NCBI GenBank assembly: GCA_016190825.1
Contig: JACPPV010000009.1
Coordinates: forward strand, 1-64,000
Length of the DNA stretch: 64,000 nt
Reading direction: 5' to 3'
From: Chloroflexota bacterium
GTDB taxonomy: Bacteria > Chloroflexota > Dehalococcoidia > Dehalococcoidales > UBA2162
Of the stretch, positions 8,480 through 13,364 are shown piece by piece (the first letter of the stretch is position 1; every line of letters starts with the position of its first letter). The position numbers were made by a program, and so were the translations under genes. The notes under the pieces are model-generated. The model had not been told where the DNA came from, did no database searches, and saw only the letters and a program-made list of their open reading frames with translations.

Positions 8480-11059
8480 ATGGTAACAGCTGAGACCGGA
8501 AGACTGAGAAAAATCACCCTGCAAATTTCGGGCATGACCTGCGCTTCGTGCGTTGCCCACAATGAGGAGGCGCTGGGAGGTTTGCCCGGCGTCGAAAAGG
8601 TGGTGGTGAACCTGGCGACGGGGAAAGCCACCGTAGAATATGACCCGAAACGGGTGACGCTGACTGACATGAGAAAGGCGGTGGCGGATATCGGCTACGA
8701 GGTTGTACTCGATAACGCCCAGCTTCACATAACGGGCATGACCTGCGCTTCATGCGTCGCCAACATCGAGAAGGCGGTGGGTGACCTGCCCGGGATCGGC
8801 AAGATCGTTGTCAGCCTGGGGACAGAGACCGCCACGCTCGAATACGCCTCCGGTATCACCTCAATGGCTGAGATAAAGAAGGCAATTCAGGACATCGGCT
8901 ATGGCGTATCGGAAAAGGTAGCCGGACAGGAGGCGCTGGACAGGGAGCAGGAGGCGCGCCGGCGGGACGTGCGCCGCCAGTTCATCAACCTGATTATCTC
9001 CGGCACGCTCGGCATGCTGGTCATGATCGGTATGCTGCAGCCGTATTTCTTCAAGTTTCTCCCCGATTGGATGAATAACAAAGTTCTCCTCTTCTTTCTG
9101 ACAACGCCAATTGTTTTTGGACCGGGGCGCCAGTTCTTCATAAATAGCTGGAACGGCCTGCGGCGCGGCATCACCGATATGAACCTGCTTTACGCAACCG
9201 GAATCGGCGCGGCTTACGGCATCGCCGTCATCAATACTTTCTGGCCGGACGCCGGCTTCGGCGGCAAAGAGGCCACTTTCTACGAGGCGGCAGCTCTGCT
9301 TACCGCCTTTATCATCCTGGGCAGATATCTTGAGGCGGTGACACGCGGGCGGACTTCTGAGGCGATTCGCCGGCTACTCAAGCTTCAGCCGAAGATGGCA
9401 AGGGTGGTCCGTGACGGGCAGGAAACAGAAATAGCCGCCGAGGATGTGCAGCTCGATGATATCCTGGTGGTCCGTCCGGGAGAGGCTGTACCGGTAGATG
9501 GGATAGTCACCGATGGCTACTCATCGGTCGACCAGTCAATGATTACCGGCGAAAGCATACCGGTTGAAAAGAAGACGGGCGATGAAGTCATTGGGGCGAC
9601 GCTCAACAAAACAGGCGCCTTTAAGTTCCGGGCTACCAGGGTGGGCAAAGACACCGCGCTATCCCAGATTATCAAGCTGGTAGAGGAAGCGCAGACCACC
9701 AAGGCGCCCATCCAGCGCCTGGCGGACAAGGTCGCCGGTCATTTCATCCTCGGTGTTCATGCTCTTTCTCTGGCAACATTCCTGTTCTGGTTTTTTGTCG
9801 GCTTCAGTTTGTGGTTCACACCGGACAGCCGCCTCATCTTGACCCCTTATGTTCTGGAAGCGGTCGGAGCGTTCGGCTTTGCCCTCCTGGTATCGGTGAC
9901 GGTGCTGGTTATCTCTTGCCCGTGCGCGGTTGGACTGGCAACGCCGAGTGCCATAATGGCAGGCAGCGGCAAGGGCGCTGAGTATGGAATCCTGTTCAAG
10001 GGCGCCGATGCCATCGAAGCCACCGCCAAACTCCAGGTTGTTATCTTCGATAAGACCGGTACCCTGACAAAAGGCAAGCCTTCCGTGACCGACGTCATCG
10101 CCAGCCGCGGGTCCGAGGAAGAGGTGCTGCATCTGGCGGCGGTGGCGGAGAAGAACTCCGAGCACCCGCTGGGCGAGGCAATTGTCAGCGGTGCCCGGGC
10201 GCAGAGCATTTCCCTCGAAGACCCGGAGACTTTCGAGGCCGTGCCGGGGCAGGGCGTCATCGCCGGGCTTAACGGTAAGACCATCTTATTGGGGAATCGC
10301 CGGCTGATGGCTGAAAAGAAAATATCTTTTGACGGCCTTGTGTCAGAGGCCGAGCGCCTGGAGCATGAGGGAAAGACAGCAATGTTCGTGGCTGTCAATA
10401 ACCAATCTGCCGGCATTGTTGCTGTGGCTGATACCCTCAAAGAGACCTCGGCGCTGGCCGTCGATGAACTGCATCGCATGGGCATCGAGGTGGCGATGAT
10501 TACCGGCGATAACCGCCGCACGGCAGAGGCAATTGCGAAGCAGGTAGGGATAGACCGCGTTCTGGCTGAGGTCATGCCGGAGGACAAGGCAAACGAGGTG
10601 AGGAAATTGCAGGATGAGGGCAAAAGCGTTGCCATGGTGGGAGACGGCATCAACGATGCGCCGGCGCTCGCGCAGGCTAACGTTGGCATTGCCATTGGCT
10701 CTGGCACAGATATTGCCAAGGAGACGGGGCAGGTGATCCTCATCAAAGATGACCTGCTTGACGTGGTCAGCGGTATCCAGATAGCCAAGGGCACTATCCG
10801 CAAGGTGAAAGAAAACCTCCTCTGGGCTTTCGGCTACAATACGCTGGCGATACCGCTGGGAATGGGACTGATTTATCCTGCCACCACCCAGGTGGTGAGC
10901 CCGGAACTGGCTGCCCTTTTGATGGCGTTCAGCTCCGTTTCGGTGACGCTGAACACCTTGCGGATGCGCGGATTTGTTCCGGCGATCCGGCGGCGGGGAA
11001 AGGGAGGCGACGAACAGGTGGCGCCAGTACCGCACCCGGTTGGTGCCCATAGCAGCTAA
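8480..11059 (+). CDS. copA: Cu(I)-exporting P1B-type ATPase
   Basis: An 859-residue copper efflux pump of the inner membrane. Two N-terminal heavy-metal-associated domains each carry GMTCASC (C21/C24 and C89/C92). The membrane copper site is CPC at 480-482, with the later YN and MxxxS elements ([18 protein letters not shown]) diagnostic of the Cu(I) subgroup. The phosphorylation site DKTGT starts at D524; ITGES and GDGIND are present. The start has a clear AGGAGG site. It lies 94 bp after csoR and 12 bp before a small membrane gene. Long antisense frames over it are shadows. Confidence 0.96.
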
Positions 11060-11692: not shown

Positions 11693-11938
11693 CTATTCTT
11701 TGAAGGCGCCCCTCCGGCGTCTCCCTGATTTCAGTCCACGAATCCCGGACCGGTGCCAGTGCCCCTGCCCAATCGGGACGGCGTGCTGCGTAATCTCTAT
11801 ATTGCAAGCCTGGTGCTCTTCGCAATACTGCTGGCATTTCTCCGCCCACGCCTTTTCTTCGTAGGCGAAACCGCAGGCTTCACACTGAAACAGGGTCCTT
11901 CTTTCCTCGTTAACTTCTCTTATTATCATTTTGACCAT
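11693..11938 (-). CDS. Small Cys-rich (zinc-ribbon-like) protein, unknown function
   Basis: From ATG 11938 this is an 81-residue protein with five cysteines (C19, C22, C35, C39 and C45; FQCEACGFAY then CQQYCEEHQAC), suggesting one zinc or Fe-S site. GGAAG upstream and a 13-bp gap after the TrxB-like gene support that start; the longer frame reads into the neighbour. It is the last gene of the glutaredoxin-TrxB operon. The function is unknown. Confidence 0.6.
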   Translation of the reverse strand: MVKMIIREVNEERRTLFQCEACGFAYEEKAWAEKCQQYCEEHQACNIEITQHAVPIGQGHWHRSGIRGLKSGRRRRGAFKE

Positions 11939-11951
11939 TGCACGCTTCCAG

Positions 11952-12869
11952 TCAAGCTGCCAGCCGTTGAAGATAGCGGTGAGCCTGAAGTGCTGCCTTT
12001 GCACCCTCTCCGGCGGCAACGACAATCTGCTTTTCCGGCACGTTGGTCACATCTCCGGCAGCATACAATCCCGGAACACTCGTTTCGCAGGAGGGGGTTA
12101 TCACTACTTCGCCCCACTTGTTCAGTTCCGCCAGTCCCTTGACTGGTTCCGAGTTTGGTATCAGGCCGATCTCGATGAAAACGCCGCCGACATCAAGACG
12201 CTTGGTCTCTCCGCTCCTGACGTCCCTGACCAGGAGCGCCTCAACGAAGTCCTTGCCCTCGATTTTTTCTACCTGGTGCTCCACGAAAACGGTAACGTTC
12301 TGGGAAGCCTTGAGTTTTTCAATGAGTATAGGTTCGGCGGACAGCTGCTTCAGTTCCACCAGGTAGGTGTATTCGGCTATCTTCACCAGGTCCAGAGCGG
12401 CCTCGACTCCCGAACTGCCCCCGCCGACAACGGCCACCTTCTTACCGGCAAAAAGCGGTCCATCACAGATAGCGCAGTAAGAAACACCCCGGCCAGTAAA
12501 CTCGCTCTCTCCGGGGACATTGAGAGGTCGGGGCCTTTTCCCGGCTGTAAAAATAACCACTCTCGATTGATATGTTTCGCCCCCATCTTCCGTCGTCGCT
12601 TCGAAGCCGCCGGGAATTTTATCGAGCCTGGCAACCCTGTACCCTATCTTCTGGTCGATTGGATACTGGGCTACCTGTTCATGGAACTTACTAATCAGCT
12701 CAGGCCCCTCGATAAACTGGTAACCCAGGTAGTTTTCGATATCCATGGTCAGGTTTAGCTGGCCGCCGAGGTCGCCGCTAATGAGCAGTGCACTGAGGCG
12801 CTTCCGCGCCACGTATACTGCCGCCGATAAGCCCGCAGGACCACCACCAACAATAATGATATCGTACAT
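11952..12869 (-). CDS. TrxB-like pyridine nucleotide-disulfide oxidoreductase
   Basis: A 305-residue flavoprotein related to thioredoxin reductase: FAD site VGGGPAGLSAAVYVA near 7-21, redox motif CAIC at 132-135, and NAD(P)H site VVGGGSSGVEAALDL near 147. It differs clearly from the TrxB at 2073. It follows the selenocysteine glutaredoxin gene by about 136 bp on the same strand, so the glutaredoxin is its likely electron acceptor. Which pyridine nucleotide it uses is not obvious from sequence. Confidence 0.88.
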   Translation of the reverse strand: MYDIIIVGGGPAGLSAAVYVARKRLSALLISGDLGGQLNLTMDIENYLGYQFIEGPELISKFHEQVAQYPIDQKIGYRVARLDKIPGGFEATTEDGGETYQSRVVIFTAGKRPRPLNVPGESEFTGRGVSYCAICDGPLFAGKKVAVVGGGSSGVEAALDLVKIAEYTYLVELKQLSAEPILIEKLKASQNVTVFVEHQVEKIEGKDFVEALLVRDVRSGETKRLDVGGVFIEIGLIPNSEPVKGLAELNKWGEVVITPSCETSVPGLYAAGDVTNVPEKQIVVAAGEGAKAALQAHRYLQRLAA

Positions 12870-13005: not shown

Positions 13006-13248
13006 CTAGTTCAGGCCGAGCGCCTGGTCCAACTTAGCTTGATTGAAGCCGACGATGACCTGACCGTCAACAGTAATAACCGGTACGCCCATCTGCCCGG
13101 ATTTCTTGATCATCTCCCGGGCTTTTTCCTGATTTTCACCTACGTTATGCTCGACATATGAAATGCCTTTTCGCGAAAGATACTCTTTCGCCCGATGACA
13201 CCACGGTCAGGTGCTCGTCGTATAGATTACTACCTGTTTGTCTGCCAT
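13006..13248 (-). CDS. Selenocysteine-containing glutaredoxin-like protein (YruB/NrdH-like)
   Basis: Reading through one in-frame TGA (13207-13209, codon 14) gives an 80-residue glutaredoxin. It runs MADKQVVIYTTST-Sec-PWC, then HRAKEYLSRKGI, the cis-proline element GVPVITVDGQ near 54-63 and GFN-KL near the end. The usual active site is CPWC, so TGA falls exactly on the catalytic first cysteine. GGAGG lies 6 bp before ATG 13248. A perfect hairpin follows the TGA at SECIS distance. It heads the operon with a TrxB-like reductase. A nonsense mutation or read error is the alternative, but it would have to hit this one codon and leave the rest perfect. Confidence 0.82.
13173..13191 (-). promoter_or_regulatory. 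Candidate bacterial SECIS hairpin of the glutaredoxin gene
   Basis: On the mRNA strand GCGAAAGA-GTA-UCUUUCGC forms a perfect 8-bp stem with a 3-nt loop starting with G. The loop begins 23 nt after the UGA. Bacterial SECIS elements are known to lie within the coding region with the apical loop roughly 16-37 nt after UGA and a G at the start of the loop, so this fits. Confidence 0.68.
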
Positions 13249-13364
13249 TCCGCACCTCCATGCCTATATTATAATTTTACCTTGTGCTTAGGACGGCGTC
13301 AACCCGAGCGCATAAGACACGAGCGTTATGCGGGCAATCCGGGCGTAATAAAGCTCCCATTCCC

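Follow-up and report, generated by a model that had tools for sequence, protein, structure and literature searches.

Does a TGA codon that interrupts a glutaredoxin frame in a Chloroflexota genome end translation, or is it read as selenocysteine (Sec)? The question is raised by one locus in a window of 64,000 nucleotides (the whole stretch of DNA analysed, positions 1 to 64,000 of contig JACPPV010000009.1). Judged from sequence comparison, it is very probable (about 0.95) that positions 13248-13006 of the minus strand are a functional Sec-glutaredoxin gene in which UGA at codon 14 is decoded as selenocysteine.

The glutaredoxin frame and its TGA

The following features of the gene are considered, each with its basis in brackets.
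13006..13248, minus strand: predicted selenocysteine glutaredoxin (Uxx-star / YruB type), 80 aa, active site UPWC (frame translation, Pfam/NCBIfam profiles, structure match)
13207..13209, minus strand: in-frame TGA, codon 14, predicted to be read as selenocysteine (TGA or Cys at the same codon in relatives)
13173..13191, minus strand: SECIS-like hairpin, 8 bp, loop GUA, loop start 23 nt past the TGA (conservation, codon resampling, folding, covariation)
13274..13302, minus strand: promoter-like site TTGACG-17-TAAAAT upstream of the glutaredoxin gene (consensus match only, 10/12)

The initial annotation claimed a glutaredoxin frame with a single TGA at the first cysteine of CPWC. Translation and a Pfam match bear this out on the minus strand, which had been left unstated; the plus-strand reading of 13006-13248 gives a meaningless translation. 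The frame runs from an ATG at 13248-13246, with a GGAGGT ribosome-binding site 5' of it, to a TAG stop at 13008-13006, and it is intact on either side of the TGA, which occupies the first active-site cysteine position (UPWC). With TGA written as U, the 80-aa product is MADKQVVIYTTSTUPWCHRAKEYLSRKGISYVEHNVGENQEKAREMIKKSGQMGVPVITVDGQVIVGFNQAKLDQALGLN, whose residues 6-65 are matched by Pfam Glutaredoxin at 2.9e-21. Standard gene callers had been expected to miss a gene whose ATG-to-TGA piece is only 13 codons long, and the standard list of open reading frames (at least 60 aa) indeed holds no entry for this frame. An annotation gap is thereby corrected, as standard codes lose or split the gene.

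In the examined set from the class Dehalococcoidia, TGA stands at the active-site codon in 58 distinct glutaredoxin loci and plain cysteine in 21, a ratio that is no measure of frequency because the TGA loci were chosen for carrying TGA. It can be said that the alignment of homologues, proposed earlier as a check, does reveal cysteine at this codon in relatives. The cysteine homologues of three genomes of the same order (G326, G387, G263) belong to genomes without a selA match. One order yields a clean natural series, from TGA with an intact hairpin through Cys with a decaying hairpin to Cys without a hairpin, and the series spans genomes with and without selA. A weak tRNA-Sec match that was checked in one genome without selA (G220) turned out to be tRNA-Ser, which probably also holds for several weaker matches from genomes lacking selA. 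One locus (L064, G336:C69) has both a TGA-glutaredoxin and its intact hairpin, and its genome gave no match for selA or tRNA-Sec; missing contigs or a recent loss of the Sec machinery may possibly account for this.

The hairpin and the selenocysteine machinery

An 8-bp hairpin with a G-led loop had been described 23 nt after the TGA; it is present as described, and among homologues it is both conserved and covarying. It reads GCGAAAGA-GUA-UCUUUCGC, with a gap of 15 nt from the TGA to the stem and of 23 nt to the loop, and it carries a G within the first two loop positions, which is the bacterial SECIS criterion. When synonymous codons were drawn for the same peptide, the probability of a stem of at least 8 bp was 0.0019 at the observed register and 0.006 if every register with a G-led loop was counted. 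The folding z-score is only -1.9, which is weak on its own, so the case rests on conservation and covariation instead. Among the distinct homologues of the class, a stem of at least 6 bp at equal distance is found in 52/58 TGA loci vs 3/21 Cys loci (Mann-Whitney p = 2.6e-8, a nominal value because the sequences are related). In an alignment of 23 TGA sequences, 97.3% of stem cells are paired, against at most 69% for slid pairings, and a compensatory UA/CG exchange is seen at the second pair from the stem base in 10 of the 23. A chance hairpin is ruled out by this conservation together with the compensatory changes. Two of the three Cys loci that keep the stem (L030, L031) lie in genomes without a selA match, and the hairpin kept in L031 (G387) has A in place of the loop G, as would be expected of a relic.

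Whether the host could decode such a codon had been made dependent on selA, selB, selC (tRNA-Sec) and selD, and all four are found in the same genome, an assembly of 1.8 Mb in 41 contigs that is 91% complete. The matches are above the cut-offs for selA (555.9 vs 267.9 bits), selB (346.1 vs 242.25) and selD (370.5 vs 125), and these three genes adjoin one another on contig C16, with one tRNA-Sec gene nearby and a second on C28. Both tRNA-Sec genes have the anticodon TCA and exceed the Rfam cut-off (L004:1501-1598, G000:C28:41897-41990; L005:1501-1597, G000:C16:157074-157166).

Some further observations concern these genes. The two tRNA-Sec copies also share about 160 bp upstream, with 92.7% identity across a stretch of 261 bp that stops exactly at CCA, and their variable arms are wholly different and paired in both. 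Six relatives, those whose tRNA-Sec sequence was read, have an arm of the C16 type, and the C28 copy looks derived. The selD gene (L021 around 1530; G000:C16:163265-164191) is itself a selenoprotein gene with TGA at the usual Sec/Cys site, and a short GC-rich hairpin stands behind that TGA.

It could be argued that an error of sequencing or assembly produced the glutaredoxin TGA, or that it marks a nonsense-mutated pseudogene, the source record being a 41-contig draft. Dozens of independent genomes, however, share this TGA together with its downstream hairpin, the reading frame beyond the TGA is fully conserved and the source genome has the Sec machinery; both readings are refuted by the independent genomes and excluded in practice. 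It is generally known that in bacteria Sec insertion competes with termination, and on this ground ribosomes might mostly stop at the TGA, with a regulatory role for the 13-residue peptide or for the stop itself and Sec insertion as a minor event. Such a reading is highly improbable, as conservation does not go beyond the needs of the glutaredoxin frame and the hairpin, and no sign of a regulatory leader is seen. Decoding of the codon as selenocysteine is therefore preferred. The hairpin just 3' of the UGA would recruit SelB carrying Sec-tRNA-Sec, so that codon 14 would be translated as Sec, a step to which the comparison of homologues points.

Family placement and neighbouring genes

Among NCBIfam models, the product exceeds the cut-off of TIGR02196 GlrX_YruB (99.7 vs 88.55) and of NF041212 Uxx_star (70.3 vs 66), a family whose name already says "(seleno)protein". 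It scores under the cut-offs of all the named subfamilies UXX-star 1, 2 and 3 (48.7 vs 72 for NF041114, UXX-star selenoprotein family 1) and under that of the glutathione-dependent Grx3 (TIGR02181, 64.4 vs 90). The best sequence match among solved structures is the glutaredoxin PDB 7c10 (6.1e-18), which, when the match is read together with PMC7642778, is taken to be cGrx1 of Clostridium oremlandii. The cGrx1 protein of Clostridium (Alkaliphilus) oremlandii is a native selenoprotein (PDB 7c10, 7c12) and has been proposed to reduce the selenoprotein MsrA (PMC7642778). Like the glutaredoxin studied here, it has about 80 aa and an active site U(or C)PxC in which Sec takes the first place; it differs in belonging to another phylum and in its proposed client MsrA, whereas here the next gene is a TrxB-like reductase. 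Reviews count glutaredoxins, with their UxxC site, as one of the known Sec families (PMC13188914; PMC9312934). The glutaredoxin described here thus belongs to a selenoprotein family known for years, the locus being new and its kind known, and general biology is left unchanged by it because the family has long been known.

It had also been claimed that a TrxB-like reductase gene and a gene for a Cys-rich protein stand behind the glutaredoxin gene, and both do follow on the same strand.
11952..12869, minus strand: TrxB/AhpF-like pyridine nucleotide-disulfide reductase with CxxC (CAIC), next gene of a likely operon (profiles; order kept in relatives)
about 11693..11938, minus strand: small Cys-rich protein (C-x2-C ... 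C-x3-C-x5-C), third gene (start codon set by eye)

The order of glutaredoxin and flavoprotein genes recurs in many Sec and Cys relatives, and the order of all three, with TGA, in two loci (L135, L136); in L132, L134 and L140 the TrxB-like gene does not adjoin the TGA-glutaredoxin. Behind the TrxB-like gene, the Cys-rich gene is conserved in L056, L135 and L136. Its product (11693-11938) has no Pfam or NCBIfam family match, and its sequence is FQCEACGFAYEEKAWAEKCQQYCEEHQACNIEITQHA. The flavoprotein reaches neither the cut-off of TIGR03140 AhpF (332.4 vs 502.9 bits) nor that of TIGR01292 TRX_reduct (293.9 vs 343.45 bits), the AhpF score being the higher. AhpF is an NADH reductase that serves AhpC through a redox domain at its N-terminus, and the pair found here resembles a split AhpF; it differs in its separate genes, its single glutaredoxin domain, a flavoprotein below both cut-offs and the lack of an adjoining AhpC. 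The pair may also be likened to Cp9/Cp34 of Clostridium pasteurianum, where a small glutaredoxin-like protein is reportedly reduced by an NADH flavoprotein, with Cys and not Sec.

Candidate function and the wider branch

By analogy with the known glutaredoxin mechanism, the Sec selenolate would attack a client disulfide, sulfenate or selenenate, and Cys17 would resolve the mixed bond. The oxidised Sec-S bond would then be reduced, most likely by the TrxB/AhpF-like flavoprotein that the next gene encodes, with NAD(P)H as its source of electrons. This reductant is regarded as the likeliest because no match for the glutathione synthetase TIGR01380 (the E. coli type, one of several types) was found in the source genome, which is 91% complete. 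That the flavoprotein reduces the Sec-glutaredoxin, a pairing suggested by gene order, is given slightly better than even odds. Four proteins of the AhpC/TSA family exceed the cut-off in the source genome, and peroxiredoxins are a reasonable guess as clients of the glutaredoxin.

A real seleno-glutaredoxin could also have metal or metalloid binding or trafficking as its main job, with the nearby P-type ATPase and the Cys-rich protein engaged in the same task. The ATPase, which has CxxC metal-binding motifs (8480-11059, plus strand), recurs near the glutaredoxin gene in relatives, and according to a 2026 review the Sec of UXX-star selenoproteins may bind metals (PMC13188914). It is encoded, however, on the opposite strand, and UPWC with a resolving Cys and an adjoining TrxB-like flavoprotein better fit a redox shuttle; a main role in metal handling is accordingly considered unlikely.

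The widest claim of the initial annotation was that the locus may define a selenol-based branch of thiol reduction in this lineage. Two observations speak for such a branch: a gene order that recurs and includes the TrxB-like gene, and the lack of a TIGR01380 match. Sec does not define it, since the family of Sec-glutaredoxins is already known and the same gene cluster has Cys in many close relatives; a new selenol branch is possible but hypothetical. It is tentatively proposed, with the odds somewhat against it, that in glutathione-poor Dehalococcoidales the Sec-glutaredoxin, the AhpF/TrxB-like flavoprotein and the Cys-rich protein form a dedicated selenium-dependent reducing chain, whose shuttle would switch between Sec and Cys forms according to whether a lineage retains the Sec machinery or loses it.

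As to distribution, a search of plasmids for the glutaredoxin returned ordinary Grx3-like proteins only, and the nearest named genomes are those of Dehalococcoidales and other Chloroflexi MAGs. In five loci (L033, L036, L040, L043, L044) the TGA-glutaredoxin domain stands at the N-terminal end of a longer protein, encoded by about 175-225 codons, an arrangement that is seen in many Chloroflexi.
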